A stretch of 20,682 nt of DNA. Origin: a virus. The stretch lies in IMG/VR virus record IMGVR_UViG_3300010391_000145, positions 1 to 20,682 of that record; one strand, written 5' to 3'. Both the position numbers and the translations under genes were made by a program. The stretch's first letter is position 1. Every line of letters begins with the position of its first letter. Below the pieces are notes generated by a model. That model saw nothing but the letters and a program-made list of their open reading frames with translations. It was not told the DNA's origin and did not search any database. Positions 2,516 to 18,088 of this stretch are shown piece after piece.

Positions 2516-2518
2516 CAT

Positions 2519-2541
2519 ATGACAGGGATTGTCTTTGTCAT
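2519..2541 (+). promoter_or_regulatory. Hairpin just upstream of the major capsid gene
   Basis: ATGACAGGGA pairs with TCTTTGTCAT across a TTG loop (ten pairs, two of them G-U). No T-run follows, so it does not look like an intrinsic terminator. It ends about 12 bases before the AAGGAGG of the capsid gene. An RNA processing or stability role is possible. Confidence 0.5.
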
Positions 2542-2562
2542 TAATATTCAAGGAGGATATTT

Positions 2563-3981
2563 ATGGAATTAACAGTGGCTGAACGCCTACAACAAGCAAA
2601 CGCAGCAGTCAGTGGTTCGGCTGCTGGTGATGCCGCAAATAGAACCAATCAAGTTGACGGAGCTTTAGGAAGAGGTGCCCCGGCAATTATTTCTAGTGCC
2701 GCAAAGCACATGGAATTGGTGCCTGGACTTTTTGGCAAGAAACACATTTCTGAAGTCATTGGAATTGGAGTGGAGACCAATGATGGTAGAGATTCAAATG
2801 GATCGGTTCATAAATCACTTAACTGCGGTGATATGAATAGCAATCGTCATGTTGCTCCGGAATTAAAACACATGATTTTGGATCTTAAAAAATCAATTCA
2901 CAATGCTCAATTAATGCAACAGATCGCTTCGTTTAAAAGTCGGCAGCCGGTAAACGTTTGTGATACGACGTATTTTAAAGCGGAAGTAGAACCAAAATTA
3001 AAAGCCTTTAGTCTTGCTGATTTCAGTTTCTGGATTCCGACGGCGAATGCAAGATTCTATTTTTCCGAATATGAGATCGAACCAGGACTAGCAAAATATT
3101 TTGAAGAATATCCGATGGACTCCAAGTCTGTTGACGTTCCTGGCGCAACAAACCGGCTGAAAGCTTATCTAGAATCAGATACGGCTACATTTACCGCACA
3201 ATATAATACTCAGGCCAGACACCAGATGTCGGCTCAAGGATGCGTCGCGAGTACCGATATTACGGAAGACCTCTTACAAGATCTTGTTCCAAACGCAGGA
3301 GCTTTTGAAAGACTTCGCAAGGAAGTTTTGTTCGGTGTTCAGCGGTCTGAAGAAGATGCGTTAATAAACGGCGACGATACCGGGACAGTCCAGGGTGATG
3401 GTCATATGGATAGTGACGTTGCTGGTGGATCGGCTTTATTATTTAATAAAGCTTTCAAGGGTCTTCGTAAAAGAGCGATTACAGCAAGTGCAACATACAG
3501 AAATGCAGGAAATGGCGTGGATCTAAGCACATTTACTGGTCTTATGGCTGCAATGGGCAAATTTGCAAATGATAAAGGCGATCTTTTGTGGATTCTTGGT
3601 CCAACCATTGATACCAAAATTGTTACTGGCGGAGTTGCAGAAATCCTTACGCTTCAAAACGTGGGCGGCATTGCAACTTTGTTAACTGGGAAGGTTCCCA
3701 GGATTTTTGGCGTTGAATCTTTTACGTCCGAATGGGTTCGCGAAGACGTTACGACAACCGGCGTGTATGCCGCTTTATCGGCATTAACAACCATTCTTTT
3801 GGTTAAGAAATCAAGATTCGTAATTGGGGTTCGCGCTCCAGTTCGCATCTGGGCCACACCGTCATTAGCATCGAGCGACAAGATGTTATTAACGGCGAAA
3901 AAGAGGGTAACTTTTTCAGGTGTAACTCAGTCTGCTACAGAAAAATCTGTTGTATGTGCAATTAACGTTGCGCTTACATAA
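2563..3981 (+). CDS. Major capsid protein (HK97 fold)
   Basis: 472 residues, preceded by a near-consensus CAAGGAGG ribosome binding site, as expected for the most abundant virion protein. The segment SEEDALINGDDTG (about 262-274) is the typical acidic E-loop/spine-helix landmark of HK97-fold capsids, and the C-terminal half contains the usual domain A pattern, for example FANDKGDLLWILGP and KSRFVIGVRAPVRIW. It follows the protease and precedes the connectors, the canonical order. The N-terminal 40 residues are Ala/Gly/Asn rich and may be a short pro-segment or flexible arm; no long cleaved scaffold is seen. The gene is bracketed by two RNA hairpins without T-runs (2519-2541 and 4003-4035). 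Confidence 0.92.
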   Translation: MELTVAERLQQANAAVSGSAAGDAANRTNQVDGALGRGAPAIISSAAKHMELVPGLFGKKHISEVIGIGVETNDGRDSNGSVHKSLNCGDMNSNRHVAPELKHMILDLKKSIHNAQLMQQIASFKSRQPVNVCDTTYFKAEVEPKLKAFSLADFSFWIPTANARFYFSEYEIEPGLAKYFEEYPMDSKSVDVPGATNRLKAYLESDTATFTAQYNTQARHQMSAQGCVASTDITEDLLQDLVPNAGAFERLRKEVLFGVQRSEEDALINGDDTGTVQGDGHMDSDVAGGSALLFNKAFKGLRKRAITASATYRNAGNGVDLSTFTGLMAAMGKFANDKGDLLWILGPTIDTKIVTGGVAEILTLQNVGGIATLLTGKVPRIFGVESFTSEWVREDVTTTGVYAALSALTTILLVKKSRFVIGVRAPVRIWATPSLASSDKMLLTAKKRVTFSGVTQSATEKSVVCAINVALT

Positions 3982-4002
3982 TTATTTCGGGTGAGGGATG
4001 GC

Positions 4003-4035
4003 GATTGACCCAGAATATGATGTTTTGGGTCAGTC
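4003..4035 (+). promoter_or_regulatory. Strong hairpin immediately after the major capsid gene
   Basis: The core arms TGACCCA (4006-4012) and TGGGTCA (4026-4032) are perfect. Pairing extends outward (GAT/GTC) and inward to a 5-nt loop, giving a stem of about 14 pairs with a few G-U. It starts 21 bases after the capsid stop codon and is followed by ACCTTAAACTAA rather than a T-run. It may be a partial terminator or a 3' stabiliser that lets capsid mRNA outnumber downstream messages. Confidence 0.65.
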
Positions 4036-4056
4036 ACCTTAAACTAAGAGGCATTT

Positions 4057-4353
4057 ATGATTTATAAAGTTGGATATTTGGCAAAACCAAAAATGATAAC
4101 TGAAATTAAACGTCCTGTTACTGGGTGTTTAGTTTTGAATAAAGATGAATATGTTGAACTTAGCGAACAAGAATATAATACGATTATCCAAAATGGTTTG
4201 GTTGAGCGTGATCTTTTAATATTAAAAGTTTTAGACGAACCGATTAAAGAAGATCTTGAACCAATTGCGGAAGAAGAAGAAAATTCAGAAACTGAAGATG
4301 TTGAAAACGAAGAAATTAAACCACGACGCAGAGGACGACCGAGGAAAAGTTAA
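4057..4353 (+). CDS. Small head-region protein with basic AT-hook-like C-terminus
   Basis: 98 residues, function not recognised. The middle is ordinary mixed sequence, residues 70-90 are strongly acidic (EEEENSETEDVENEE) and the last ten residues are PRRRGRPRKS, which contains the GRP core of an AT-hook DNA-binding motif. Small proteins with acidic stretches and such basic tails are common between capsid and connector genes in phages. Possible roles are head completion or contact with packaged DNA, but this is inference. The start follows AAGAGG at a suitable distance, and the stop overlaps the next start (TAATG), so the two genes are translationally coupled. Confidence 0.7.
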   Translation: MIYKVGYLAKPKMITEIKRPVTGCLVLNKDEYVELSEQEYNTIIQNGLVERDLLILKVLDEPIKEDLEPIAEEEENSETEDVENEEIKPRRRGRPRKS

Positions 4354-5000
4354 TGCCGGGTTTTACATTAGCATCACACTGCCTAGTTGATTCAGCAACG
4401 CTATCTAAATTTATTTATGGCGTTGACGATGGATCGGTTGGCCTGACAACTCAACAAAAATTTAACGTTGAACTTTGTATAGCAGCGGCTTCAAGACAAA
4501 TACTTAATTTTATAGATCTTGATATTAAGGCCGCTTCGTTTTCAGAGGTTTGGGACGGAGCCGATTCGGATGAATTAGTTACGAAACAATGGCCTATAAA
4601 TTCTATCGCATCAATTAAACTTTCCAGCAATGGCGTATTTACAAATTCCACGCCTCTTGATTCTTCTGGTTATTATACGGACGGCAATTCAATAATGTTC
4701 AGGGATGGCTTCCGGGTTCCTCGCGGGCGCGGATTACTGCAAGTAATTTATAATGCAGGTTACACGACTGTTCCAGAAGATTTGCAGTTAGGTTGTCTTA
4801 TGCAGTTTCAATATCTTTACCAGCAAAACGGTAAAAACCCACCTATGGCCGGACTTGAATCAGTTCGCAAAATGGATGAATCACAGACGAAGGATAAAAA
4901 TCTTTCTGAGCATGGATTGCGTTCAGAAGTTGAAGCTATCTGTAAAGAATATCAGAGGTTTGAAGCACCTCTTTCTATAATGTTTGCGAGGGTAAGTTAA
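4353..5000 (+). CDS. Head-tail connector protein (HK97 gp6 / SPP1 gp15-like)
   Basis: 215 residues. Adaptor proteins of this kind bind below the portal ring and form the neck. The recognisable pattern is an N-terminal helical segment (TQQKFNVELCIAAASRQILNF), a central beta region and the hallmark VIYNAGYTTVPEDLQLGCLM, which matches the family's YNAGY-x-x-VP-x-DL motif. It sits in the correct place after the capsid and before a gp10-like protein. It is joined by a TAATG overlap at both ends (4351-4355 and 4998-5002). The call rests on motif and position; the exact subfamily is not resolved. Confidence 0.82.
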   Translation: MPGFTLASHCLVDSATLSKFIYGVDDGSVGLTTQQKFNVELCIAAASRQILNFIDLDIKAASFSEVWDGADSDELVTKQWPINSIASIKLSSNGVFTNSTPLDSSGYYTDGNSIMFRDGFRVPRGRGLLQVIYNAGYTTVPEDLQLGCLMQFQYLYQQNGKNPPMAGLESVRKMDESQTKDKNLSEHGLRSEVEAICKEYQRFEAPLSIMFARVS

Positions 5001-5590
5001 TGTCTGAAACAACCATGAATCAATTTTTTAAATTGATGCGAGATGAGCAGGATGCTTTTAAGAGAAGAATCCTTCAAGTTGTTTTCGACATGAGTACTGC
5101 CGTTAAGCGAGAAGTTATAAATAATATAAAAGAAACGTTTGGAAGTGAATCAGGAAGATCGGCAGGAACGTCTGGTAAGGGCGGGAAATTAATGGGGTCT
5201 GTACAGAGAGAAATGCTTCACGAAGGAGCTGTACAAATTACCGCCGGAAATGAAGGAGTGCCGTATGCTGCAATTCATGAATTTGGTGGTACGATAAAGG
5301 CAAAAAAATCTTTTCTTACAATACCAGCCGAAGGATATGAAAAAAGGCGAGCAAGGGAATTTGATTTAAAATTTAGATTAGTCGGAAGAGATAAATATAA
5401 TAATCCAATGGGAATATTAACGGATGATGAAGACAGGATTGCCTTTTGGTTGTTTAAGATGGTACAAATTCCAGCGCGTCCATACATGCAACCAGCTGTA
5501 GAAGAAGTGGGAACAGACGAAGTGCTGATGGAAAGATTAAAAGAAGTAACGGGTAAAGCAGAAATTCCTTACGAGGTAACCAGGTTGTGA
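5000..5590 (+). CDS. HK97 gp10-like head-tail joining/tail completion protein
   Basis: 196 residues. The diagnostic stretch is PYAAIHEFGGTIKAKK followed by FLTIPA (about residues 88-110), with the later ARPYMQPAVEEV, both typical of the HK97 gp10 / minor tail Z-like family that completes the head-tail interface. The N-terminal 40 residues look helical and the Gly/Ser-rich loop after residue 50 is expected. Its stop overlaps the next gene's GTG start (GTGA at 5587-5590), so translation is coupled. Confidence 0.85.
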   Translation: MSETTMNQFFKLMRDEQDAFKRRILQVVFDMSTAVKREVINNIKETFGSESGRSAGTSGKGGKLMGSVQREMLHEGAVQITAGNEGVPYAAIHEFGGTIKAKKSFLTIPAEGYEKRRAREFDLKFRLVGRDKYNNPMGILTDDEDRIAFWLFKMVQIPARPYMQPAVEEVGTDEVLMERLKEVTGKAEIPYEVTRL

Positions 5591-6057
5591 GTGATTCAAA
5601 AGGATCATTAATATTAACTGCTCTCAAAACTCGCCTTGAGTCTATAACCTTGGCTCACGGTTACCGAGTTGATATTAAGGAAGTGAAACTTAACACGATT
5701 GATATAAATATGAATTATCCGTCGTCTGATCTTCCTAAAATTGCAATCCTAAATGATAAAGCAAGAAACGAACAAGCCGTCTCCGCGCAATACGTTAACA
5801 ACATGAACGTATGGCTTCAGTTGGTAGCAGAACCCGAATGGACTGATCTGCAAATGGAAGATTTTAAATCTGATATTCGCCAAGCTCTTTTCGGTGATAG
5901 TCCGTCTGCGTCGGGAAATACTGGAATAACTTTAGGCGGAAAAATTACGCGAATAGATATGGGAGAAGAAATTAATGATCTGCATATGCTGAAAGTAAAC
6001 CGAGTTTCAGCTATGCAATTTACTTTAGTGAGTCACAGAATTTCATATAGGGATTAA
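5587..6057 (+). CDS. Tail terminator / minor tail U-like protein
   Basis: 156 residues with a GTG start inside the preceding gene's stop. The layout fits phage tail terminators: an N-terminal helix (ILTALKTRLESI), a PKIAIL strand, then a C-terminal half ending in a strand-rich NRVSAMQFTLVSHRISYRD. These proteins cap the tail tube before head joining. Assignment depends mostly on position between gp10-like and tail tube genes and on overall size, so it is moderate. Its last 20 residues resemble residues 45-58 of the next protein (NRVSATQLSLVSKG). Confidence 0.65.
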   Translation: MSDSKGSLILTALKTRLESITLAHGYRVDIKEVKLNTIDINMNYPSSDLPKIAILNDKARNEQAVSAQYVNNMNVWLQLVAEPEWTDLQMEDFKSDIRQALFGDSPSASGNTGITLGGKITRIDMGEEINDLHMLKVNRVSAMQFTLVSHRISYRD

Positions 6058-6079
6058 CAACTTTTTTGGAGGAAAGAAC

Positions 6080-6859
6080 ATGAACTTTTTACGATCCCTG
6101 ATTTTAACAGCAATTTTTTTAGCGTCTTCGTTGTCGTTTGGATTGGTTTTGCAACCGTCCAACATTGATTCAGTAAAACTTAACAAGGGTCAGGTTTTTA
6201 ATATTAAAGGTAATAGGGTTAGCGCAACTCAGTTATCTTTAGTAAGTAAAGGCGGAACCCCTCTTTCGTCGATGAATTACGGTTATATCGATATTGGTGG
6301 AACTACAAGAAAAGTAAGTTCTCCCAAAACTCTTACATTAGCTTCTAATGCTTGCTCTGCAAAATGGGGAACAAGCGGAACTATCCTTCTTTATGTTTAT
6401 GCTGGCTCTACTTCTGGCGGTGTTGTTTATCTTTGCGCGAGTGACGTACCAAATCAAACCGTTGTTAGTGCGGCATCTGCTGGAGCAGCTGGTTATATGA
6501 ATTGTAGTACTGCTCTTACAGCCGCAGATTCTGTAAGAATGCTTGGATCTGTTTCTACAAATTGCACTGGCCCCGTTATTGCTAATTCATATTCTGAAGT
6601 AGCGGTTGGTTTAAATGGTCTTGGTTATGTTCCGGTTAAAAATTATGGAACTGTATCTAGCACAACATCTAGCACTACACTGGTTTTTACAGTTAATGGG
6701 ATTCAAATCGGTGACTATTGTTTGGCTCAACCAACTGCGCTTGGAACTGGCCCTAATTATATTAAAAGTGTAAGCACAGCCACCGCAAATCAACTTAATG
6801 TTGTGGTTGATACTACTCAGTCTGGTGGGACGACTACTATTAATTATATTTGCTACTAA
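6080..6859 (+). CDS. Signal-peptide-bearing surface/decoration-like protein in the tail operon
   Basis: 259 residues, starting after a strong GGAGG ribosome binding site. The N-terminus has a textbook Sec signal: MNFLRS, a hydrophobic core LILTAIFLASSLSF, and a likely cleavage around Gly21. The body is Ser/Thr/Gly/Val rich and probably all beta, with six Cys in the mature part. The last 75 residues (TLVFTVNGIQIGDYCLA to INYICY) resemble the beta domain found in phage head-fibre and decoration proteins, where a V-x-G-h-x-x-GD motif precedes a run of strands. An exported protein between tail terminator and tail tube is unusual, since virion parts assemble in the cytoplasm. It may be a captured cell-surface gene, or the hydrophobic segment may not act as a signal. 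Function not established. Confidence 0.6.
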   Translation: MNFLRSLILTAIFLASSLSFGLVLQPSNIDSVKLNKGQVFNIKGNRVSATQLSLVSKGGTPLSSMNYGYIDIGGTTRKVSSPKTLTLASNACSAKWGTSGTILLYVYAGSTSGGVVYLCASDVPNQTVVSAASAGAAGYMNCSTALTAADSVRMLGSVSTNCTGPVIANSYSEVAVGLNGLGYVPVKNYGTVSSTTSSTTLVFTVNGIQIGDYCLAQPTALGTGPNYIKSVSTATANQLNVVVDTTQSGGTTTINYICY

Positions 6860-6875
6860 ATTTAACAAACAGAAA

Positions 6876-6889
6876 GGAGGTTCGCCTCT
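6876..6889 (+). promoter_or_regulatory. Hairpin that sequesters the Shine-Dalgarno of the tail tube gene
   Basis: The ribosome binding site AAAGGAGG is followed directly by TTCGCCTCT and then ATG at 6890. GAGG (6877-6880) pairs with CCTC (6885-6888) across a TTCG tetraloop, with one more G-U pair outside. The hairpin buries the SD and abuts the start codon, so it could limit or gate translation of the tail tube protein. Confidence 0.5.
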
Positions 6890-8494
6890 ATGACAATAAA
6901 ATACCGTTCGTCTTTAAATTTTGCGGAAACTTATGCTAGCGAAAAGCAAGGGGTCGGGATCTCCATAGAAAACTTCGTACACATTAAGGAAGAAACTACC
7001 CCGGGCACCTTTGTTCCTCCAAGCATAGGAACCCAGGGAAGTTCTACTTCTGGTTCAAGCCCATCGACAGATATTTCAGGTGGTTCAAATACTAATCTTA
7101 AGGCCGCCGTTGACGGTTTTGCCGCCGTTAACGTAACGCTGGCTTTACCTAGCATGGACACAGGTCCGGAAATTGCTGCAGAACTTGAAACAAAAATTAA
7201 TGCCGCACTTGTCACGGCTGGTTATGACGCAAGGGTTTGGGCCGAATTTGCTTCGAGTGTTTATAAAATTTGGTCGCAAAAAGTCGGAACCGCTTCAACG
7301 GTAGTAATAACCGATGGCGCGACTCTTGATGTTGCTACGGCATTAAAATTGGGCGTTACTGGAAATGGCGGATCAGAAGCCGCTGGAACTTTTGGCGGGG
7401 ATTTCCTTTATATGACAAAATGCTCGTTAAAGGTTAGTCAGCCATTTAAACCGTCAATGCATAAGACAGGTCGTCAGCCTACGAATATTATCAAGGAAAA
7501 GATAAAGTCCGAGGGTGACCTGGAACTTTATTTTAATCTTGGATCGGGTGTAACACCCACCCTAGATACGCCTGTAGCGTTACTTCTCGAAGCAATAATG
7601 GGTAGGAAAACCACGACTGGAAGTTCCATAGTTTTTGATTCGTATTATTCCCAGGATAAATATTTCTCGATTGTTCAAAGTAATAATATGTTTTCCAGGT
7701 CATTTTCTGGAGGATATCCAAAAAGTCTTACAATTGCTTTACCGGGTGATGGCGAAGCTAAATTGACCATGCCTATTAAGGCAAGAAATGGTTTATACGC
7801 TTCAATAGCAAAACTTAGCGCGGCTGTTTCCGATACTGAAGTTGTTATTGTTGAAGCGGGAGAATCAAATAGGTTTGAAGTCGGCGCAAGGGTGATGGTT
7901 GTTGATGATGATGGCAGAACTATTGTTGGGGGCGCAACTGGCGCAATAACGGTCCTTTCAAGAACTGATGTTAGTAATATAGTGACGCTTTCCGAACATG
8001 TAACGGTTGATGACGACGGGTACTTGGTTTTTTGGGCACCTCACGTCCTGGACGTATCGGGAACAGACAATCCCACAACAACACTTACCGGAACCGTAAG
8101 TTTCGACGGCGGAACTACCCCGGTTGAAGAAATCCGAAACGTTGAAATTACTTTTGATCCAAAATTTGAAGACCAAGACGCTTATTATGGAGCTGATTCA
8201 AATCGAGGAAGGGTCGTTTCCGACAGATCGGATATAAAAGCAGCGATTGATCTGGTAATGAGCGCAAGCCAAATATCCAAGGTAATTAATGCAAAAGAAT
8301 TTGAATCGGTTAATATTAATGTAGTTCTTGGCGCTGCTGCAGGCAGACGTGTTGAGTTCGATTTACCAAAAATGTATATAGAAGTTCCTGACATGGAGTT
8401 GCCAGAAACGGGCACAGTTGTTGCGAAACTTTCCGGTTTTGCAATGCAATCTGCCGCTGGCATGATGGATGCATTAACTATTTCTTATTTGTAG
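6890..8494 (+). CDS. Phage tail tube protein with an inserted N-terminal domain
   Basis: 534 residues, larger than most tail tube proteins. The C-terminal section (about 440-534) is typical: VEFDLPKMYIEVPDMELP followed by KLSGFAMQS and a short strand at the end. The N-terminal start (ENFVHIKEETTPGTFVPP) also matches tail tube proteins. Between them, residues about 65-165 form what looks like an insertion (KAAVDGFAAVNVTLALPS, then IAAELETKINAAL, then VYKIWSQKVGTASTVVITDG), a pattern seen as a repeated beta domain in phage sheath and adhesin proteins. The protein would polymerise into the tube that carries DNA. It is the last gene of the virion operon: a terminator lies 47 bases downstream and no tape measure gene follows. 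Confidence 0.75.
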   Translation: MTIKYRSSLNFAETYASEKQGVGISIENFVHIKEETTPGTFVPPSIGTQGSSTSGSSPSTDISGGSNTNLKAAVDGFAAVNVTLALPSMDTGPEIAAELETKINAALVTAGYDARVWAEFASSVYKIWSQKVGTASTVVITDGATLDVATALKLGVTGNGGSEAAGTFGGDFLYMTKCSLKVSQPFKPSMHKTGRQPTNIIKEKIKSEGDLELYFNLGSGVTPTLDTPVALLLEAIMGRKTTTGSSIVFDSYYSQDKYFSIVQSNNMFSRSFSGGYPKSLTIALPGDGEAKLTMPIKARNGLYASIAKLSAAVSDTEVVIVEAGESNRFEVGARVMVVDDDGRTIVGGATGAITVLSRTDVSNIVTLSEHVTVDDDGYLVFWAPHVLDVSGTDNPTTTLTGTVSFDGGTTPVEEIRNVEITFDPKFEDQDAYYGADSNRGRVVSDRSDIKAAIDLVMSASQISKVINAKEFESVNINVVLGAAAGRRVEFDLPKMYIEVPDMELPETGTVVAKLSGFAMQSAAGMMDALTISYL

Positions 8495-8540
8495 AAAATT
8501 TGTTAACTTAGATTTATTCATTTTTAGATTCCTTTTAAGG

Positions 8541-8570
8541 CCCCGTATCACGGATGACGCGGGGTTTTTT
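8541..8570 (+). terminator. Intrinsic terminator ending the virion operon
   Basis: CCCCG (8541-8545) pairs with CGGGG (8560-8564), followed by six T and then CTTTC. It lies 47 bases after the tail tube stop and directly before operator copy 1, separating the virion operon from the accessory block. Confidence 0.85.
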
Positions 8571-8571
8571 C

Positions 8572-8599
8572 TTTCAAATATATTTGAAAAGTGCAATAT
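8572..8599 (+). promoter_or_regulatory. Operator/promoter copy 1, upstream of the Wzy-like gene
   Basis: Perfect 18-bp palindrome TTTCAAATATATTTGAAA at 8572-8589, then four bases, then CAATAT (8594-8599) as a -10 element. The same palindrome and the same 4-nt spacing recur at 10052 and 11437. Here the ATG begins only seven bases after the -10, with no ribosome binding site, so the transcript may be leaderless. Confidence 0.75.
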
Positions 8600-8606
8600 T
8601 GAACTT

Positions 8607-9758
8607 ATGCTTAAATCCATCCCTTATTTAATCCTCGGAGCGATAGTCCCCCTCATCGTTAAGGCTTATGTTTCCGACTTACCAATAGTATTAACCAAGG
8701 TTTTTGGAGGCCAGGTTTATATCGATTTGTTTAGTTGGTGGAGGGCTAAATTCATTCTCCTGGCCGCTTTTCTCGCTATCCTAATAGGAAAGATTGAGGC
8801 GCCAAAATGGGTTAAAATATATGCCGGCCTGACGTTAATGACGGGTTTTGTCACTATTGGCACTTCCGATATGCCTGGGATCGTCTTTTATGGCGGGCCT
8901 GAATATTATGACGGCATGATTACCGAATGGTGTTATTTGATCCTGATTCTTTACGCGCCAATGCTGTTGCGCGAGGTGAGAGCTCAAAAATTAGTTATAT
9001 GGGGATTAGTAGCGGGATTAGCGGGAATAGCACTTGCCGGGTTATTAAATCCTTGGGAATACCTTAGGCCGATTATTTTAACGAAGCAATTAATATCCGA
9101 GGGCGCACATTTTTCAATCGTTTCATTTCACTCAACATTAGCCAATTCTAATTATGTTGGGTTTTATTGTTCAATGATCGTACCGCTGGCTTTTGCAATG
9201 ACTTTAAAAAAAGCTCGAGTTTTTTTGTGGTTTTTAATTATTGCTGTCTATATTTTAATCGAATCTAAAAGCAGGTCAGGAATGACGGGCGCGGTAATAG
9301 GATGCCTGGCGGTTCTTTTAATTCAAAAAAGGGTCCTTTTGTGGATTGGTTGTGGATTAATTATCCCTGCAGGCGGGTTTCTTTTAACCTATACACGAAT
9401 CCTTAAAGATCTTACTTTAAGCAATCGGGTTGAAATTTGGCAAAATACCCTCGATTTAATAGGCTGGATAGGTGCTGGAGGGGGGGTTTTTAGTCTGTAT
9501 TACCCACAAAACGGAGGGTTAATCGTTGATAAGCCTCATAACTTATATTTACAGCGTGCATTTGAACAGGGTTGGTTTGGGATTATTATTTTTCTTTGCT
9601 TTATCGGTTATGTTATTTATCGCAACAAAAAACGACCGGAAATATTTGGGCCGATTATTGGATTTCTTGTGGCTGGACTTGCTAATGATAACCTTATTTT
9701 TACTGCTCCTATATTTTGGTGCATAGTTTGTTTAGGATTGACTACAAAAAAGGATTGA
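8607..9758 (+). CDS. O-antigen polymerase/ligase-like membrane protein (Wzy_C family)
   Basis: 383 residues with about ten hydrophobic segments. The pattern of the Wzy/WaaL family is visible: STLANSNYVGFY (176-187), ESKSRSGMTG (219-228) and the periplasmic-loop signature with NRVEIW (273-278), GAGGGVF (289-295), and PHNLYLQRAFEQGWFG (310-325) with His311 and Asn312. Family members join or polymerise O-antigen units on undecaprenyl carriers at the outer face of the inner membrane. A phage copy would most simply alter the host lipopolysaccharide, giving serotype conversion and blocking superinfection, as the wzy of Pseudomonas phage D3 does. It is monocistronic, with a terminator on each side and its own operator. 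There is no Shine-Dalgarno before the ATG. Family call firm; polymerase versus ligase not decided. Confidence 0.82.
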   Translation: MLKSIPYLILGAIVPLIVKAYVSDLPIVLTKVFGGQVYIDLFSWWRAKFILLAAFLAILIGKIEAPKWVKIYAGLTLMTGFVTIGTSDMPGIVFYGGPEYYDGMITEWCYLILILYAPMLLREVRAQKLVIWGLVAGLAGIALAGLLNPWEYLRPIILTKQLISEGAHFSIVSFHSTLANSNYVGFYCSMIVPLAFAMTLKKARVFLWFLIIAVYILIESKSRSGMTGAVIGCLAVLLIQKRVLLWIGCGLIIPAGGFLLTYTRILKDLTLSNRVEIWQNTLDLIGWIGAGGGVFSLYYPQNGGLIVDKPHNLYLQRAFEQGWFGIIIFLCFIGYVIYRNKKRPEIFGPIIGFLVAGLANDNLIFTAPIFWCIVCLGLTTKKD

Positions 9759-9805
9759 CCTATATTCTTTCGTGGAAGTACTCAATGATTGTTTTAGTGA
9801 AAATG

Positions 9806-9835
9806 GCCCGGGTTCAAATATCCGGGCTGTTTTTT
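9806..9835 (+). terminator. Intrinsic terminator after the Wzy-like gene
   Basis: GCCCGG (9806-9811) pairs with CCGGGC (9822-9827) across a ten-base loop, followed by TG and six T. It lies between two convergent genes and overlaps the last codons and stop of the minus-strand HTH gene. On the minus strand the hairpin is followed by only a short T-run, so it works best for the + transcript. Confidence 0.85.
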
Positions 9836-10017
9836 ATTATATCAATTCTGTGATCTAGCTTTTCAAGGCATTCCTGAAATACATCAAAGGGCCAATCTGT
9901 GTATCCGTTCCAGTAGTTATGGAGGGTTTGCGGGGAAATTCCTATAGTCCTGGCAAGCTCGGAAAGATTTATTTTCTGTCCTTCGGTAATCGTTTTTATT
10001 ATTTGGAATGCGGTCAT
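9814..10017 (-). CDS. Small Cro/C1-type HTH regulator, candidate repressor of the three-operator regulon
   Basis: 67 residues. Residues 16-38 form a clear helix-turn-helix: INLSELARTIGIS followed by PQTLHNYWNG, with the small residue in the turn and the typical N-x-W/N-G end of a Cro/Xre recognition helix. It has no extra domain, so it resembles Cro-like proteins or the C proteins that control restriction-modification genes. It is transcribed away from the ParB-methyltransferase gene, and the palindrome at 10052-10069 sits between their starts. Reading the minus strand, a TTTAAT element lies four bases after the palindrome, the same spacing as on the + strand. Autoregulation and control of all three operator copies is the natural inference. 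No DNA-binding evidence is possible from sequence alone. Confidence 0.8.
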   Translation of the reverse strand: MTAFQIIKTITEGQKINLSELARTIGISPQTLHNYWNGYTDWPFDVFQECLEKLDHRIDIIKNSPDI

Positions 10018-10051
10018 TCATTAAAAATACCATCGTTTTTAATTAAAGTCT

Positions 10052-10079
10052 TTTCAAATATATTTGAAACTCGTAATAT
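10052..10079 (+). promoter_or_regulatory. Operator/promoter copy 2, divergent between HTH and methyltransferase genes
   Basis: Palindrome TTTCAAATATATTTGAAA at 10052-10069 and -10 TAATAT at 10074-10079. A -35-like TTTTCA at 10051-10056 is 17 bases from the -10, so the palindrome covers the -35 and spacer, a position suited to repression. The mirror-image promoter for the minus-strand HTH gene has TTTAAT at the same distance. Confidence 0.8.
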
Positions 10080-10107
10080 TAGGGAATAATCAAACAAAGG
10101 CTATTAA

Positions 10108-11310
10108 ATGTCAAAAAAAGTAAATGTAGCAGTAAAGGAAATGGTGTTTTTGTCGATTGATGATTTAACTCCGTTTCAAGGCAAACTTAAAACTTTATCT
10201 GACGATAATTATGAAAAATTAAAGAACGAAATTATAGGCCATGATTTTTCCTTCGCAATTCATATATGGAAAAATGACAATAAACATTTGATACTCGACG
10301 GGCATCAACGCCTAGAAACATTAAAAAGAATGAAGGACGAAGGTTTTGAAATTCCAAAAATACCCGTCGCAATAGTGGAAGCAAAATCTTTAAAAGAAGC
10401 CAAACTCAAAGTCTTATCAGGAACCAGCCAATACGGGGAAATTACAAAAGATGGATTTATGGACTTTGTTCAAACAAATGATTTGGTATTCGATGATTTT
10501 GCAAACCTTAATTTTCCAGAAATTAATATCGATAATTTAAAGTTGGTTTTATTTCCAGACGAAGCAAAAGACGCAATCGAAGACGAAGTTCCAGAAGTTC
10601 CAAAAGAAACTTTTGTTAAACCCGGTGACATGTTTCAACTTGGGGAACACAGACTTCTTTGTGCCGATTGCACAGTTAAGGAAAATGTTGAAAGGTTAAT
10701 GGGAACAGAGAAAGCGGATATGGTTTTTACAGATCCTCCGTATGGGATAAATGTTTTAGGTTCAGACAATCAAATCGGAGCCGGGAAATGTCCAAAAAAA
10801 TATAGTCATATCGAAGGCGATTTAAAAGAATATAATCCATTATTTTGCATAAATTACGCGCCTCTTTCCTTTATATGGGGAGGAAATTATTTTGCACATT
10901 TACTTCCTAAGTCCACATCTTGGATTGTTTGGAATAAACATTCGGATATAAGCAAGGAAAGGGCAAATGATTTTAGTGATTGTGAACTAGCGTGGACAAA
11001 TTTTAATAAAACATCTGTTAGACTTTTTACTCATGCGTGGATTGGTTTTTTGAGACATGGTAATAAAAAAGATGAATGCGAAAAAAGACTTCATCCAACA
11101 CAAAAACCTGTTGGACTATTTGAAGAAATTTTCAAAGAATATGAATTTCCTAATAAAATTTTAGATTTATTCGGAGGTTCAGGCAGCACTTTAATTGCAT
11201 GTGAGAAGACAAACAGAAAATGTTTTATGAGTGAAATATCACCTGAGTATGTAGAAGTCATAATAAATCGTTGGGAAAAATATAGCGGAAAAAAGGCCGT
11301 AAAATTATGA
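10108..11310 (+). CDS. ParB-like domain fused to DNA adenine/N4-cytosine methyltransferase
   Basis: 400 residues. Residues 1-150 are ParB-like: LSIDDLTPFQGKLKTLSDDN, then LILDGHQRLETLKRM (61-75) around a GxxR box. Residues 170-400 are a beta-class amino methyltransferase: the catalytic TDPPYG (208-213), HPTQKPVGLFEEI (329-341) and the AdoMet-binding ILDLFGGSGSTLIA (351-364). It should transfer a methyl group from S-adenosylmethionine to an exocyclic amino group of A or C in a short target. No restriction enzyme accompanies it, so it is probably an orphan enzyme protecting phage DNA or altering host methylation. It begins with AAAGG upstream and is driven by operator copy 2. Its ATGA end overlaps a small zinc-finger ORF. 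A duplicate of its N-terminal half lies at 11493. Confidence 0.88.
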   Translation: MSKKVNVAVKEMVFLSIDDLTPFQGKLKTLSDDNYEKLKNEIIGHDFSFAIHIWKNDNKHLILDGHQRLETLKRMKDEGFEIPKIPVAIVEAKSLKEAKLKVLSGTSQYGEITKDGFMDFVQTNDLVFDDFANLNFPEINIDNLKLVLFPDEAKDAIEDEVPEVPKETFVKPGDMFQLGEHRLLCADCTVKENVERLMGTEKADMVFTDPPYGINVLGSDNQIGAGKCPKKYSHIEGDLKEYNPLFCINYAPLSFIWGGNYFAHLLPKSTSWIVWNKHSDISKERANDFSDCELAWTNFNKTSVRLFTHAWIGFLRHGNKKDECEKRLHPTQKPVGLFEEIFKEYEFPNKILDLFGGSGSTLIACEKTNRKCFMSEISPEYVEVIINRWEKYSGKKAVKL

Positions 11311-11474
11311 TACATATATGTGAAAATTGTAAAAAAGAATTTAATAGAAACAGAAAACTATCAAGATTTTGTACGCATAAATGCTGTTCAGAATATTTAA
11401 ACGGAAAAAATTTATCATTTTTCTGCAAGATTGTCTTTTCAAATAAATTTGAAACATTTAATATTAGGGGATAA
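11307..11474 (+). CDS. Small zinc-finger ORF, possibly a truncated HNH-type gene
   Basis: 55 residues. The ATG overlaps the methyltransferase stop (ATGA). Residues 1-30 contain ICENCKKEF and RFCTHKCCSEY, a treble-clef/zinc-ribbon pattern like that at the N-terminus of many HNH-type phage proteins. After about residue 37 the reading frame runs straight through operator copy 3 and its -10, and stops at TAA 11472-11474, so the C-terminus looks non-native. The simplest reading is a gene cut short when the promoter plus ParB-like gene was duplicated into its 3' end. A functional 55-residue peptide cannot be excluded. Confidence 0.45.
   Translation: MIHICENCKKEFNRNRKLSRFCTHKCCSEYLNGKNLSFFCKIVFSNKFETFNIRG
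11437..11464 (+). promoter_or_regulatory. Operator/promoter copy 3, upstream of the second ParB-like gene
   Basis: TTTCAAATAAATTTGAAA at 11437-11454 (8-bp arms, asymmetric AA centre), four bases, then TAATAT at 11459-11464. From 11433 to 11495 the sequence aligns without gaps to 10048-10110, with 54 of 63 bases identical by hand count, so this is a duplicate of copy 2 including the ribosome binding site and start codon. Confidence 0.78.
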
Positions 11475-11492
11475 CCAGATAAAGGATATTAA

Positions 11493-12037
11493 ATGATAGA
11501 AGATCAAAAAACTATATCTGTCCAATGTGAGGGAGCTCACCTTTTAGATATAGATGAAATTGAAATATTCCAAGGATCGTTGAAGTCACTTTCCGATCAG
11601 AATTACGAGAAACTTAAAAAATCAATTCTTGAGCTTGGTTTTTCCGCGCCGTTTTTTATTTGGGAAACGACAAACACAATTGGTTAATGGACGGTACTCA
11701 GAGAAAAGTTACCCTTCATAAAATGAGAGAAGAAGGATTAAAAATCCCTAAACTTCCTTGTGTCAAGATATTTGCAAAAAGCAAGAAAGAGGCGGCACAG
11801 AAACTTTTGGCCATAGTTTCTCAATTTGGAAAAGTTGGAAATGATGGCTTGCTACAATTTTCTAATACTTTTGATTTAAATCTTTTGGAAATTAGAAATA
11901 ATTTTGAACTTCCTGAAGTTAATTTTGATTATTTAATAATGCCAGAATCTGCAAATGGAAAGGAATTTACTGAAGATGTTGAATTTGAAGTTGTTTGGAA
12001 TGAATGCCCGAAATGTGGCAATAAATGGCCCAAGTAA
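11493..12037 (+). pseudogene. Second ParB-like protein, interrupted by a one-base frameshift
   Basis: The first segment (frame from ATG 11493, stopping near 11687) and the second (same strand, frame from about 11660 to 12037) together align with residues 10-150 of the ParB-methyltransferase. Matching pieces are FQGSLKSLSDQNYEKLKKSI, then LMDGTQRKVTLHKMREEG, then LPEVNFD. Joining after Trp57 (TGG, 11661-11663) with a -1 shift restores the paralog spacing exactly and gives about 181 residues. One G is probably missing from the GGG at 11662-11664. Unlike its paralog it has no methyltransferase domain and ends in a zinc knuckle, NECPKCGNKWPK. It overlaps the next gene, a C5 methyltransferase, by 13 bases. 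The break may be a real mutation, an assembly error or, less likely, recoding. In the GxxR box His is replaced by Thr. Confidence 0.75.
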
Positions 12038-13035
12038 TTTCTACATTTTCGGGTTGTGGGGGCTCTTCTCTTGGTTATCAACTAGCTGGTAATAAAGTTA
12101 TTCTTGCTGTCGAATGGGATAACAATGCAGTTGAAACTTATAAATTAAACTTTCCTAATACCCCTATTTATCATGGAGATATTGCAAAACTTTCAGTTGA
12201 AGAAATATTTAAGTTAACAGGAATAAAAGAAGGTGAACTTGATATTTTTGATGGTTCCCCGCCATGCCAAGGATTTTCAACAGCTGGCAAAAGAGTGATG
12301 AATGATCCTAGAAATTATTTATTTAAAGAATACGTTCGCTTGCTTCGCGGCCTTAAACCTAAAGTTTTTGTAATGGAAAATGTTTCTGGAATGGTTAAAG
12401 GCAAAATGAAACTTATTTTTGCTGATATATTAAAAGAACTAAAAGAATCTGGATACCAAGTAAAAGCAAGGCTTCTAAATGCAATGTATTTTAATGTTCC
12501 ACAGTCACGGCAAAGGATAATTTTTATTGGTGTACGAAATGATTTAGGATTAAATCCAAATCATCCAAAACCAATAAATAAACCCATTGGATGCGGAAAA
12601 ATAATAAAAAGCGTTACGCCAAAAACTTTTGCTCCAGAAAATGAAAAACAAAAAGAAGTTTTTAAATATATAAAACAAGGGAAATCAGCAATTCAGTGTT
12701 GCCCAAAAAATATATTATTAAAATATATTCCAAGAATGGTAAATAATAAAACATTTATATTTAACGCAATATGTAAAAGAATTGATCCAAATAAAGTTTG
12801 TAATACAATAACAAAAACATTTAAAGAATTTTCCGGGCCACAAATTCATCCTTATGAAGACAGATATTTAGCAATTGAAGAATTGCAAGCATTAGCAACG
12901 TTTCCAAATAGTTTTAAATTTGTAGGAAATTATAAAGAACAATATTCAAGAATTGGGAACACAGTACCTCCAAACTTTATGCGAGCAATTGCGGAACATA
13001 TTAATAAGGAAATTTTGGATAAAATTCATCTATAA
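12025..13035 (+). CDS. C5-cytosine DNA methyltransferase (Dcm family)
   Basis: 336 residues, complete by motif. Motif I is STFSGCGGSSLGY (6-18), which binds AdoMet. Motif IV is GSPPCQGFS, with the catalytic Cys81. Motif VI is MENVSG (117-122), motif VIII is QSRQRIIFIGVR (160-171) and motifs IX-X end in RIGNTVPPNFMRAIAEHI (309-326). Residues about 175-275 are the target recognition domain; it has an unusual Cys pair (225-226) and is Lys/Asn rich. The product is 5-methylcytosine in a short site that cannot be read from sequence. The start lies inside the end of the ParB-like gene (13-bp overlap), with GAATGCCCGAAATGTGG-type sequence upstream rather than a good ribosome binding site, so translation is probably coupled. 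No cognate nuclease is near. Confidence 0.93.
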   Translation: MAQVISTFSGCGGSSLGYQLAGNKVILAVEWDNNAVETYKLNFPNTPIYHGDIAKLSVEEIFKLTGIKEGELDIFDGSPPCQGFSTAGKRVMNDPRNYLFKEYVRLLRGLKPKVFVMENVSGMVKGKMKLIFADILKELKESGYQVKARLLNAMYFNVPQSRQRIIFIGVRNDLGLNPNHPKPINKPIGCGKIIKSVTPKTFAPENEKQKEVFKYIKQGKSAIQCCPKNILLKYIPRMVNNKTFIFNAICKRIDPNKVCNTITKTFKEFSGPQIHPYEDRYLAIEELQALATFPNSFKFVGNYKEQYSRIGNTVPPNFMRAIAEHINKEILDKIHL

Positions 13036-13257: not shown

Positions 13258-13428
13258 ATGATACATAAAATAAAAATAGTAATTGAAAATCTTGGCGGAA
13301 CTTGTGATGAGCGAACTTTAGAAATAGAAGCAATATCTGAAAAAGCGGCAATAAAAAAAGCATGTGCAATTATTGGGAATAGATTAGGAAGAATTTTAAG
13401 AATAAACGGCAGGCCATTTATTTATTAA
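13258..13428 (+). CDS. Hypothetical small protein, first gene of the accessory operon
   Basis: 56 residues, not recognised. The start follows GAAAGGAG with a seven-base spacing, which is strong support for translation. The sequence is an alternating strand (IKIVIENLGG, then RTLEIEAIS) followed by a helix (EKAAIKKACAIIGNRL) and a short basic end. It could be a compact beta-beta-alpha domain. It is the first gene after the promoter at 13200. Confidence 0.6.
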   Translation: MIHKIKIVIENLGGTCDERTLEIEAISEKAAIKKACAIIGNRLGRILRINGRPFIY

Positions 13429-13455
13429 TAAACAACATACATATTAGGAGTCAAA

Positions 13456-13638
13456 ATGGACTACCATCACGAAACAACCAAGCCAGCGATTGATTACAGG
13501 ATTGAAGATCTGGAAGAACGTTTAGAATTTTTAATGAATAAATTTAATTCTACCGGAGAAGATCAAGACGAATGCGAAGAAATTAAACTTAAATTAAGTG
13601 AACTTTACTCGGAAAGAGCAATTCAACTTTATTCATGA
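13456..13638 (+). CDS. Hypothetical acidic coiled-coil protein
   Basis: 60 residues after TTAGGAGTC. The body from residue 15 is a heptad-like Glu/Leu helix (IEDLEERLEFLMNKF, then ECEEIKLKLSELYSERA), consistent with a small helical hairpin or coiled coil. It lies 27 bases after the previous gene and 13 bases before the next. Function unknown. Confidence 0.6.
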   Translation: MDYHHETTKPAIDYRIEDLEERLEFLMNKFNSTGEDQDECEEIKLKLSELYSERAIQLYS

Positions 13639-13651
13639 AAGGAGATTTAAA

Positions 13652-13927
13652 ATGCTAAGTAAAAACAAAATAGATGCGTTTGGTTATGAGCTTCAGGTAT
13701 TGCGCGATAGGCTTAAAAAACTTCATGAAGATGAAAAAACTTTAGCGGATCTTTTTAAGGCGGAAGGTCAAGGAACGTTTCAGGGTAATGATATAACTAT
13801 TACGGTTGATGAAGTAGAGCGCGAAAGTCTTGACATGCAAGCCTTACAGAAAAAAGTTAAGGATGAAATAATTGAATCATGCAAAAAAGTTAACAAATAT
13901 TTTCAAGTTAAAGTACATAAAAATTAA
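13652..13927 (+). CDS. Helical phage protein with a short beta insert
   Basis: 91 residues from ATG 13652, chosen because AAAGGAG lies seven bases upstream; a longer in-frame start at 13598 would overlap the previous gene and lacks such a site. A first helix (FGYELQVLRDRLKKLHEDEKTL) is followed by a beta hairpin (GTFQGNDITITVDEVERESLD) and a second helix (MQALQKKVKDEIIESCKKV). Small phage proteins with this helix, G-x-F-x-G strand, 'LD' and helix layout are common in early regions and usually uncharacterised. I cannot name a function. Confidence 0.65.
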   Translation: MLSKNKIDAFGYELQVLRDRLKKLHEDEKTLADLFKAEGQGTFQGNDITITVDEVERESLDMQALQKKVKDEIIESCKKVNKYFQVKVHKN

Positions 13928-13956
13928 TTGTATCAAAATAAAAGGGAGGGTTTAAA

Positions 13957-14601
13957 ATGAAACATTTTTTAATCTTAACGTCAATCGTGTTTTTAGGTTG
14001 CGGAACTGATGAAAAACAATCTGAACCAGCGACAAATCAAAACCCAGATTATGCAATGGTTGTTGAAGAAATTCCTGATTGCAATTTGGACAATAATAAG
14101 CAGTTGATTTATGTAAAACCTACCAAGGAACTTCAAAGCTGTGAATACGGAAAATGGATTTTGGTTGAAGTAAAAGGAGTAAAAGGAGAAAGGGGTGAAA
14201 AAGGCGATAATGGAATTGGGAAAGATGGTATAGATGGAAACGATGTAAATATTGATGTTACAGAAATTACCGTTAGCCCTTCTGGGCAAGATCCACATGT
14301 TTTTGTAAGAAATGGTTCTATGTATTTAGTGCCTGCAAAAATGTCTTTTGAAAACTCTAAATTTGCTTGTGAAATGAACGGATGGCGAATGACTAACATG
14401 GCAGAGGTTCGCGATGTTTTAGAAAATTCTACTTTTTATTTTTCTATGGGAGGCAATAGTTTTACTGAAACTTGGTTTGATAGTGAAAGCATTAATCCTC
14501 AATATCTTAAATATCAGTGTCATTATTGTGGTACATTATTACAGATTCTTGAAAGGGCAGATACAGAAATAAGGGCTTCTATTTGTATAAAAACATTATA
14601 A
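13957..14601 (+). CDS. Putative lipoprotein with collagen-like repeats and a lectin-like C-terminus
   Basis: 214 residues after AAAGGGAGG. The N-terminus MKHFLILTSIVFLGCG is a lipoprotein signal with Cys15 as the acylation site (Phe-Leu-Gly-Cys, slightly atypical at -3). Residues 74-94 carry Gly-X-Y repeats (GVKGERGEKGDNG, then a less regular GIDG), as in short collagen-like stalks. The C-terminal 85 residues, with SKFACEMNGWRMTNMAEVRDVL (shown here in part) and several Cys, resemble the DUF1566/C-type-lectin-like pattern A-x-x-x-C...GWR-hP...E. The likely product is a cell-surface lipoprotein on a stalk. In a phage early region it is best read as a lysogenic-conversion or superinfection-exclusion candidate, which is inference. 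Confidence 0.65.
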   Translation: MKHFLILTSIVFLGCGTDEKQSEPATNQNPDYAMVVEEIPDCNLDNNKQLIYVKPTKELQSCEYGKWILVEVKGVKGERGEKGDNGIGKDGIDGNDVNIDVTEITVSPSGQDPHVFVRNGSMYLVPAKMSFENSKFACEMNGWRMTNMAEVRDVLENSTFYFSMGGNSFTETWFDSESINPQYLKYQCHYCGTLLQILERADTEIRASICIKTL

Positions 14602-14615
14602 AATAAGAGGTAAAA

Positions 14616-14861
14616 ATGAAAAAAAGAAAAATGACAGAAGTTTATATAAGAAGATCAAATTATAAGTCAGATGATCCAGATGATAATATAATTGTTTGGA
14701 CTAAGGTTAATAATTTATTAGATTTAGAAAATTTCTTAACATTTTTTGGAATACTCGCTGATATAAAAGATATGGTTTCGACTTTAAAATATAGTCATTC
14801 TCATTTTTTTGTTGGAGAAGAAAACCCCTATTATTATAAGGAGTATATATCATGTGTATGA
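14616..14861 (+). CDS. Hypothetical protein
   Basis: 81 residues after AAGAGG. No family recognised. The N-terminus is basic (MKKRKMTEVYIRRSNYK) and the rest is rich in Asp, Phe and Tyr, with a helix-like stretch DLENFLTFFGILADIKDMV. Its last ten bases overlap the next gene's start. Confidence 0.5.
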   Translation: MKKRKMTEVYIRRSNYKSDDPDDNIIVWTKVNNLLDLENFLTFFGILADIKDMVSTLKYSHSHFFVGEENPYYYKEYISCV

Positions 14862-15214
14862 TGGCTGGTCCATTACCAACTTTTTATTTAAAAAGAAAAC
14901 ATTGGCATAAAGGTAAAGTACTTTGGTTTGATGATCTTTCTGGGGACGGTGTTGCGTTGATTCATGGACAAAGTGTTTATTTTCATTGGAGCTGTTTGTT
15001 TTCAAAAAAAGAAAGATCAAAAAAGGGTTTTTGTGATAGAAAAAATAGAAAAGAGCTTAAAATATTATCTGATATGCCAATTCTTTGTATTGTTTTTAAC
15101 AATGGGTATACATGGCAGATTGATGAAATGCGCGTTGATAAAAGAGCTTTAAAAGAAATGAATGAAATTTCAGAAACTTTGCTCCAATTAGAATGTCCTA
15201 AATATAGAAATTAA
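14852..15214 (+). CDS. Divergent cold-shock-domain-like protein
   Basis: 120 residues after TAAGGAG. Residues 20-50 read KGKVLWFDDLSGDGVALI then GQSVYFHWSCLF. This follows the cold-shock domain layout G-x-V-x-WF-...-G-x-G-...-V-F-x-H-x-S, though the RNP1 aromatic is missing (GDGVALI in place of GFGFI). A later FNNGYTWQIDEMRV may supply the last strand. Family members bind single-stranded nucleic acid. The similarity is by eye and could be superficial. The start could also be ATG 14858 or 14861. Confidence 0.45.
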   Translation: MCMMAGPLPTFYLKRKHWHKGKVLWFDDLSGDGVALIHGQSVYFHWSCLFSKKERSKKGFCDRKNRKELKILSDMPILCIVFNNGYTWQIDEMRVDKRALKEMNEISETLLQLECPKYRN

Positions 15215-15225
15215 GGAGATTTAAA

Positions 15226-15417
15226 ATGACCGATTATACAGAATCCACATCTTGCAAATGTCCACATTGCAAAACCACATTTACATCAGTTGACGGGCCA
15301 AATTGCGATTGTGACGACCATATTTTTAGATGCGAATCATGTGGGATCAAGATGTTAGATACATATTTAAAATGGCATGAAAATTTAAAATGTTGGGTTT
15401 GTCCGGAATGCGAATAA
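15226..15417 (+). CDS. Small protein with three CxxC zinc knuckles
   Basis: 63 residues after AAGGAG. Three CxxC pairs are visible: CPHC (12-15), CESC (36-39) and CPEC (59-62), plus Cys10, 27, 29 and 56. This is enough for two zinc sites of the ribbon or knuckle kind. Such proteins often bind nucleic acid or a partner protein. No specific function can be given. Confidence 0.65.
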   Translation: MTDYTESTSCKCPHCKTTFTSVDGPNCDCDDHIFRCESCGIKMLDTYLKWHENLKCWVCPECE

Positions 15418-15438
15418 CTTATAAAACAGGGGGTAAAA

Positions 15439-15597
15439 ATGAAAGTCTATCTGTCAATAAAAGAAATGGATTTGATATTAGAAGCGATTGAAATGTTGAA
15501 TCAGGATTATAAACACAATTTCCCAATGTCAAAAATATTAAATAAACTGGAAGAAAAGATTTTAACCAAACTATGCAAAAAAGGAGTCAAAAAATGA
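15439..15597 (+). CDS. Hypothetical small helical protein
   Basis: 52 residues after GGGGG. The sequence is mostly helical (EMDLILEAIEMLNQDYKHNF, then SKILNKLEEKILTKL) and ends in a basic tail. Its stop overlaps the next start (ATGA at 15594-15597), so the two are coupled. Not recognised. Confidence 0.55.
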   Translation: MKVYLSIKEMDLILEAIEMLNQDYKHNFPMSKILNKLEEKILTKLCKKGVKK

Positions 15598-15740
15598 AAC
15601 ATAAAAAGATTTACATTATTGCCATCCGTTTTAAATCAGGTCATGTAGAAATATTTCAATTCAAAACCGAAAAATCCAGGGAAGAATTTATCGAAACTTT
15701 AGGCGAAGGGGTGGAATATGCAACATCAGAAATCAATTAA
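15594..15740 (+). CDS. Hypothetical small protein
   Basis: 48 residues. The coding sequence begins in the ATGA stop of the previous gene, with AAAGGAG a few bases upstream. It looks like two strands (KKIYIIAIRFKSGHVEIFQF) followed by a short helix (SREEFIETLGEG). The next gene starts inside it. Function unknown. Confidence 0.5.
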   Translation: MKHKKIYIIAIRFKSGHVEIFQFKTEKSREEFIETLGEGVEYATSEIN

Positions 15741-15909
15741 AATCGGAAGGCCAAAAATAAGTAAAGAGGGTTCCTCAACAATCTCTTTTTCTGCCAGCCA
15801 GGAGCTTAAACGGGAAATATTTGAGGCCCAAAAAGTGTTCGGCGGGATATCAAAATTCATGGTTTTTTTGTACCGATTTTGGAGGCAGAGTTTGGGGTCG
15901 AAAAAGTAG
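15718..15909 (+). CDS. Small ribbon-helix-helix-like DNA-binding candidate
   Basis: 63 residues after GAAGGGGTGG, overlapping the previous gene by 23 bases. A basic arm with GRPK is followed by a strand (STISFSASQELKREIF) and two helices, an order compatible with a ribbon-helix-helix (CopG/Arc-like) fold. Its position at the end of the small-gene operon, just before the AT-rich spacer that leads into the recombination genes, would suit a local regulator. Assignment is tentative. Confidence 0.45.
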   Translation: MQHQKSIKIGRPKISKEGSSTISFSASQELKREIFEAQKVFGGISKFMVFLYRFWRQSLGSKK

Positions 15910-15952
15910 GGTTTTTTGATGTGAATAACCCTGTTGATAAGTCTTAACTGTA

Positions 15953-15980
15953 TATTATTTAAACAATTTATTAAATAATA
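15953..15980 (+). repeat. 10-bp inverted repeat in the AT-rich spacer before the recombination genes
   Basis: TATTATTTAA and TTAAATAATA flank an 8-base centre. A further TTAAATAA lies at 15991-15998, 20 bases from the matching bases of the right arm. The spacer 15910-16084 (175 bases) is very AT-rich and otherwise contains only a likely promoter. It may hold a regulator binding site or an easily melted element. Confidence 0.5.
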
Positions 15981-16013
15981 AAGAATAATATTAAATAAAC
16001 CTTTTTAAAGATT

Positions 16014-16041
16014 TTGGTTTACTTTTCCCTCCATTTAATAT
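16014..16041 (+). promoter_or_regulatory. Likely promoter for the recombination/replication operon
   Basis: TTGGTT (16014-16019), a 16-base spacer and TAATAT (16036-16041) lie 43 bases before the exonuclease start. The -35 is weak; the call depends on position and on the good -10. Confidence 0.35.
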
Positions 16042-16084
16042 ATAAAAAATAATTCAAAATTAATAACTTAAAAAGGAGTTAAAA

Positions 16085-16975: not shown

Positions 16976-16988
16976 AAGGAGGTTTTTA

Positions 16989-17186
16989 ATGAGTGATTTA
17001 GAAATTCTAAGATTACCCCAGGTATCTGAAAAAACAAAACTTAGTATCCCAACAATCCGTAAAAAGATTGATGATGGTACGTTCCCGCGCCCTGTAGAAT
17101 TGTCTAATAGAGCGATAGGATGGACTAATGAAACGATAGAAGCGTGGATTAATAATTTACCAATAAAGGAGTCAAAAAATGAGTAA
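16989..17186 (+). CDS. AlpA-like winged-HTH regulator/excisionase
   Basis: 65 residues from ATG 16989, chosen because AAAAGGAGG lies about seven bases upstream; an in-frame ATG at 16965 would overlap the exonuclease and lacks a site. The sequence LRLPQVSEKTKLSIPTIRKKIDDGTFPRP followed by GWTNETIEAWI (quoted in pieces; 7-55) is the AlpA/MerR-like excisionase pattern: an HTH, F-P-R/K-P, then W at the second helix. Family members regulate prophage genes or act in excision. Here it is embedded between two recombination genes and overlaps the next start by 8 bases. Confidence 0.85.
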   Translation: MSDLEILRLPQVSEKTKLSIPTIRKKIDDGTFPRPVELSNRAIGWTNETIEAWINNLPIKESKNE

Positions 17187-18042: not shown

Positions 18043-18088
18043 TTTTTTCAACTTAAAGGTTTATTTTTCCGGAGAAATAAAATATATT

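Follow-up and report, generated by a model that had tools for sequence, protein, structure and literature searches.

Described Regulatory Systems

In the bacterial Aca families analyzed, each core promoter contains an inverted repeat and is repressed by the cognate Aca protein (PMC9410906, PMC8434428). In the archaeal virus SIRV2, early counter-defence genes at scattered positions and the gene of a DNA-binding protein are preceded by one common regulatory sequence (PMC11065993). Most of the C (controller) proteins studied act through two operators, of which the distal one is activating, and have a nuclease alongside (PMC3115060, PMC4041747). As for the gene types considered here, a phage Wzy protein changes the serotype of the host in D3 and probably in epsilon15 (PMC4815439), and fusions of a ParB fold with an N6/N4 methylase are overrepresented in phages, where an anti-defence role is suspected (PMC12704722).

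The locus described below belongs to a viral contig that was analyzed as a whole (the window; 20,682 bases), a 20.7-kb genome fragment of an unclassified phage. An 18-bp palindrome, TTTCAAATATATTTGAAA, stands there before a wzy gene, between a DNA methylase gene and the divergent gene of a 67-aa helix-turn-helix (HTH) protein, and before a second methylation unit. By analogy with the systems above, Aca autorepressors are most likely the closest working model, and a better fit than C proteins. The likeness to Aca1, Aca2 and Aca10 consists in a small phage HTH protein, an inverted repeat in the core promoter that overlaps the -10 and -35 elements, and the autoregulation and early pulse of counter-defence genes that are proposed for this island. 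The differences are as follows. First, aca usually lies downstream in the acr operon, an arrangement that is not found at the HTH locus, where the HTH gene is divergent. Second, three transcription units are spread here over 3 kb, with no known acr. Third, the HTH protein has no demonstrated sequence membership of an Aca family. With SIRV2 and its putative Aca8 the locus shares one regulatory sequence placed before several scattered genes and the gene of a DNA-binding protein; however, the SIRV2 promoters are of the archaeal TATA/BRE type, many more genes are involved, and the sequence is not described as an 18-bp palindrome.

Genes of the Accessory Island

The first part of the window (1-8494) contains portal, protease, capsid and tail-tube-like genes ("tail-tube" is a working label). 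It is followed by an accessory island (8495-13035). The remainder holds small genes, genes labeled RecE-like and RecT-like (provisional names given on domain and context), and others. Outside the island, positions 13957-14601 encode a protein that resembles a lipoprotein and includes a short collagen-like GXY stretch; a similar protein is encoded in the related contig that holds L021 (L021:5642-6412).

The structural-gene operon ends at an intrinsic terminator (8537-8568, plus strand; hairpin of -16.4 kcal/mol with a T run, z -2.3), immediately upstream of the first operator copy. The next gene (8607-9758, plus strand) encodes a 383-aa membrane protein with hydrophobic segments and a Wzy_C domain (PF04932, E 6.4e-15; O-antigen ligase/polymerase superfamily). 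The O-antigen modification put forward in the preliminary description is a putative function, derived from this domain only. A strong terminator (9799-9834, no strand assigned; -21.9 kcal/mol and z -5.4 on the plus strand, weaker on the minus strand) separates wzy from the convergent HTH gene. As terminators flank it on both sides, wzy appears to be a self-contained cassette dependent on the promoter at 8572, and it has the attributes of a moron, namely a predicted promoter of its own, terminators, and absence from that place in relatives. The gene resembles those of D3 and epsilon15 in coding for a phage-borne Wzy-type polymerase, and the Wzy-beta of epsilon15 likewise has a Wzy_C domain (PMC4815439), but no other serotype-conversion gene was recognized beside wzy. 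No Shine-Dalgarno sequence precedes its ATG (8607), though most genes in the window have strong ones, and the predicted transcription start is at or next to this ATG; together, these features suggest that wzy may be translated from a leaderless or nearly leaderless message.

The HTH gene (9814-10017, minus strand) is convergent with wzy and divergent from the gene of a 400-aa ParB-domain N6/N4 DNA methylase (10108-11310, plus strand; PF01555; phrog_498, 8.9e-66). A short Cys-rich ORF (11307-11474, plus strand, from the ORF list), for which no Pfam match was found, begins at the methylase stop codon and extends into the third operator copy; it is probably a gene remnant at a duplication joint, cut by the duplication. 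Further downstream are a ParB-like gene paralogous to the methylase N-terminus (11493-12037, plus strand, from ORFs and comparison) and the gene of a 336-aa C5-cytosine DNA methylase (12025-13035, plus strand; PF00145, E 2.4e-68). The ParB-like gene is split in two frames by a break near 11660; in other viral contigs, its relatives are intact and lie ahead of C5 methylases. The break could be either a real mutation or a sequencing or assembly error. A programmed frameshift was rejected: inspected by eye, the heptamers near 11652-11665 do not fall in register with the reading frame, which makes a small indel or an error in sequencing the likelier cause.

Operator Palindrome and Promoter Structure

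The palindrome was located by sequence match, with no strand assigned. It is exact at 8572-8589 (copy 1) and 10052-10069 (copy 2), and has a single central mismatch, T to A at position 10, at 11437-11454 (copy 3); no fourth copy was found in the window with up to three mismatches allowed. In 100 dinucleotide shuffles the mean number of palindrome matches was 0.19, and three were never reached. Recurrence of the 16-bp core was seen in none of 400 shuffles, while a pair of palindromes no shorter than 18 bp appeared in 1.75% of shuffles. All three copies are intergenic, intergenic DNA making up 7.9% of the window, and their number is well beyond chance expectation.

Behind each copy, a 4-nt gap is followed by a -10-like hexamer: CAATAT for wzy (8594-8599, plus strand; from the sequence), TAATAT for the ParB-methylase (10074-10079, plus strand; from the sequence and the comparison of duplicates) and TAATAT for the ParB-like/C5-methylase unit (11459-11464, plus strand; from the comparison of duplicates). 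Copy 2 is common to two divergent promoters, as the HTH gene has its own hexamer, TTTAAT (10042-10047, minus strand; from the sequence), at equal spacing on the other side. The preliminary description is borne out in this anatomy, that is, in the three occurrences with one variant at a central base, the 4-nt gap and hexamer behind each, the intergenic promoter positions before the genes it had named, and the symmetrical -10 of the divergent HTH gene. On sequence evidence, the palindrome is a genuine private operator in three promoter regions. A role as a terminator or RNA structure was rejected, since the regions fold no better than shuffles and have no Rfam match.

All four hexamers are weak sigma-70 matches, and a promoter scan requiring 9 of 12 positions did not list them. 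If the hexamers are -10 elements, the operator is centered at about -25.5 and spans about -34 to -17, overlapping the -35 element and the spacer, i.e., the interval between the -35 and -10 positions. At four predicted promoters, the inverted repeat would lie inside the core promoter of the HTH gene and its targets. RNA polymerase is blocked by a dimer bound at about -34 to -17, and the overlap with the -35 element and the spacer speaks for a dimeric HTH protein acting as a repressor. A Bacteroidota-type promoter was also considered, as the palindrome contains TAnnTTTG; it was dropped because there is no TTTG at the expected -33 position and because a strong Shine-Dalgarno sequence precedes most genes of the window.

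HTH Protein

The 67-aa protein, the proposed autorepressor, is of the Cro/C1 type and matches HTH_3 and HTH_26 above the Pfam cut-offs. The structure predicted by AlphaFold2 from the single sequence (pLDDT 74) has four helices, with the helix-turn-helix at residues 18-37. These features agree with a small HTH protein on a mobile element, as is expected of an Aca protein. Foldseek matched the model to HipB, to the dimeric phage repressors P22 c2, P2 C and 434, and to Aca2, with a probability near 1, and also listed C.EcoT38I; no match had an E-value below 0.001. Aca2 is among the weak structural matches, and no Aca-named model was among the matches of the protein in NCBIfam, Pfam and PADLOC, libraries which may or may not include Aca models. 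The closest match is a 67-aa Cro-like protein of Paenibacillus phage Wanderer, the gene of which diverges from an XRE-family repressor gene. According to the Foldseek comparison, the predicted fold is consistent with a dimeric Cro/C1-type HTH. Since the divergent gene shares the middle operator and its product has this fold, the HTH protein is a plausible candidate for the protein that binds the operator. The Cro/CI immunity operators of 434, P22, P2 C and Wanderer resemble the present system in the fold of the regulator, in palindromes of 14-18 bp and in an operator between divergent promoters, but here the targets are accessory genes, and the operators are single rather than clustered in sets.

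Alternatively, the palindrome may belong to another regulator of the phage, e.g., the main lysogeny repressor encoded outside the fragment, and the HTH gene may be one of its targets. Phage repressors with dispersed operators are well established, the record is a 20.7-kb fragment, and the AlpA-type protein encoded at 16965 provides a candidate. Nevertheless, in this incomplete genome no copy precedes the genes at 13258-20682 or the recombination and replication genes, which would be the expected targets of an immunity repressor, and the divergence of the HTH gene from an operator is the usual layout of an autoregulator; we therefore regard this explanation as rather unlikely.

Distribution in Viral and Bacterial Genomes

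No relatives of the HTH protein were found in viral contigs or in 12 related contigs, the HTH gene was not seen near 80 viral C5-methylase loci, and phage genome records gave weak HTH matches only. Viral contigs contained no match to the operator at its -10 spacing, and no repeated palindrome was found in related phages or at the 80 C5-methylase loci. At the same time, 30 of these 80 loci match the ParB-like protein in its C-terminal half, and the relatives inspected lie directly upstream of the C5 methylase, most of them overlapping it, so that the ParB-like and C5-methylase genes look like a widespread two-gene unit. Judging from the collections searched, the methylation cassette would be common in phages and the regulator and operator private to this one, a restriction which supports the specificity of the operator. 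A ParB-like gene without a methylase domain before an overlapping C5 methylase is seen at 11493-13035 as well as in L042, L084, L047, L056 and L067, and several ParB-like relatives end in a CPxCGxxWxK zinc-ribbon-like motif.

In the relatives identified by the capsid gene (47-63% identity), the tail-tube gene is followed by different genes. No Wzy match was found at that place in L012, L014, L015 and L017, hence either this lineage acquired wzy or the others lost it. In phage records, wzy had no tblastn match, and no match was found for the capsid and tail-tube genes. One relative (G007) repeats canonical TTGACA promoters instead of palindromes. In a related phage contig (L018:122-5000), a repeated cassette of a canonical TTGACA promoter and a ACGAAAGGAAA ribosome site precedes several small genes, which is a quite different control of the equivalent genome region.

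Phages borrow host operators, and the palindrome could be used by a host transcription factor, the genes then following a host signal. However, the operator with its -10 spacing matched only one of 84,980 species genomes, a Mollicutes MAG; roughly estimated, chance would give about as many. While the search leaves room for weaker or differently spaced sites and for an uncollected host, a host factor seems quite improbable.

Comparison with Controller Proteins

The C proteins of restriction-modification systems are likewise small Cro/C1-type HTH proteins linked to DNA methylases, with TATA-centered palindromes, and under a controller logic the HTH protein would activate some genes and repress others. 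This agrees with the position of a Cro/C1-type HTH gene next to methylase genes, with the presence of C.EcoT38I among the Foldseek matches, and with the dyad lying in a central TATA as in the C.Esp1396I operators (PMC4041747). However, each promoter has one palindrome instead of paired C-boxes with an activating upstream site, and there is no GACT-type C-box. The operator overlaps the -35 element and the spacer, and so does not occupy the activator position upstream of -35; the regulator gene is divergent and not co-operonic. Finally, no restriction endonuclease or other nuclease was recognized among the island ORFs and their proteins (Pfam, PADLOC). We consider controller logic very unlikely, and the analogy to C proteins drawn in the preliminary description is weak. 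Its other component, a private regulon, fares better: the anatomy gives good support to one operator common to the surface-glycan, methylation and HTH genes, and no nuclease was recognized in the island beside the methylation genes, both N6/N4 and C5.

Duplication of the Promoter Unit

An 88-nt block comprising the operator, the -10 hexamer and the leader is present in duplicate, at 10023 and at 11408 (76% identity), and the paralogous ParB domains downstream of both blocks have about 42-45% identical residues. Because a single duplicated promoter/ParB unit accounts for the copies at 10052 and 11437, there are only two independent operator placements; the three copies reported earlier are real, but their independence was overstated. 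The duplication also provides a natural footprint. Between the two promoters, GTCT with the palindrome is identical at 21 of 22 positions and TAATATTAGGG at 11 of 11, while the 4-nt gap between the operator and the -10 hexamer agrees at one position of four. The leader after the -10 hexamer is also fairly well kept (18/23), whereas the DNA upstream of the operators is 45-54% identical, and the third codon positions of the duplicated coding sequence are 38-40% identical. Identity at 32 of 33 positions of the operator and -10, as against approximately 40% at third codon positions, argues for selection on the site and indicates that selection has likely kept these elements while their surroundings diverged. 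The flanks of the copy at 8572 are unrelated to those of the other copies except for the equal spacing to AATATT. It is hardly credible that the repeat simply arose when cassettes were duplicated or recombined and has no part in regulation: two copies do lie within one duplicated promoter unit, yet the copy at 8572, in spite of its unrelated flanks, has all 18 bp unchanged and an equal distance to the -10 hexamer, and the operator and -10 are conserved although the gap and the coding DNA diverged.

Proposed Regulation of the Island

The operators and their positions, the genes, the terminators, and the conservation of the operator and -10 between diverged duplicates form the observed basis of the model. 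From these we infer that the HTH protein is the binder and acts as a repressor, that the timing is early and that the purpose is counter-defence. With some reserve, we favor the reading in which the palindrome would be the operator of a self-regulated island, and the 67-aa HTH protein would repress the promoters of wzy, of its own gene, of the ParB-methylase and of the ParB-like/C5-methylase unit. A dimer of the protein would bind the palindrome at about -34 to -17 of the four promoters and block RNA polymerase there. As the repressor would be absent at DNA entry, the surface-glycan and methylation genes would fire immediately; the accumulating HTH protein would then shut both the island genes and its own gene, resulting in an early pulse. 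The weak -10 and -35 elements, the possible regulators outside the fragment and the AlpA-type candidate were counted against this reading, as were the single-sequence basis of the structural model with its weak Foldseek matches and the failure to find relatives of the HTH gene or of the operator with its -10 in the viral and related contigs and near the 80 C5-methylase loci. A more specific interpretation, held tentatively and with somewhat more doubt than belief, is that of a trans-acting, Aca-like counter-defence regulon, in which one divergent HTH autorepressor with a single private operator would govern several separate anti-restriction and surface-exclusion genes.

Biological Implications

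If this circuit is true, it suggests that wzy acts early, possibly in superinfection exclusion, and not as a late or lysogenic trait. One tiny autorepressor would then coordinate the self-modification of phage DNA with a change of the host surface, as Aca proteins do for anti-CRISPR genes, and the Aca principle would extend beyond anti-CRISPR operons. In archaeal viruses, counter-defence genes are already found by a method based on regulatory sequences (PMC11065993); in bacterial phages, operator sharing would likewise mark counter-defence genes of unknown function.
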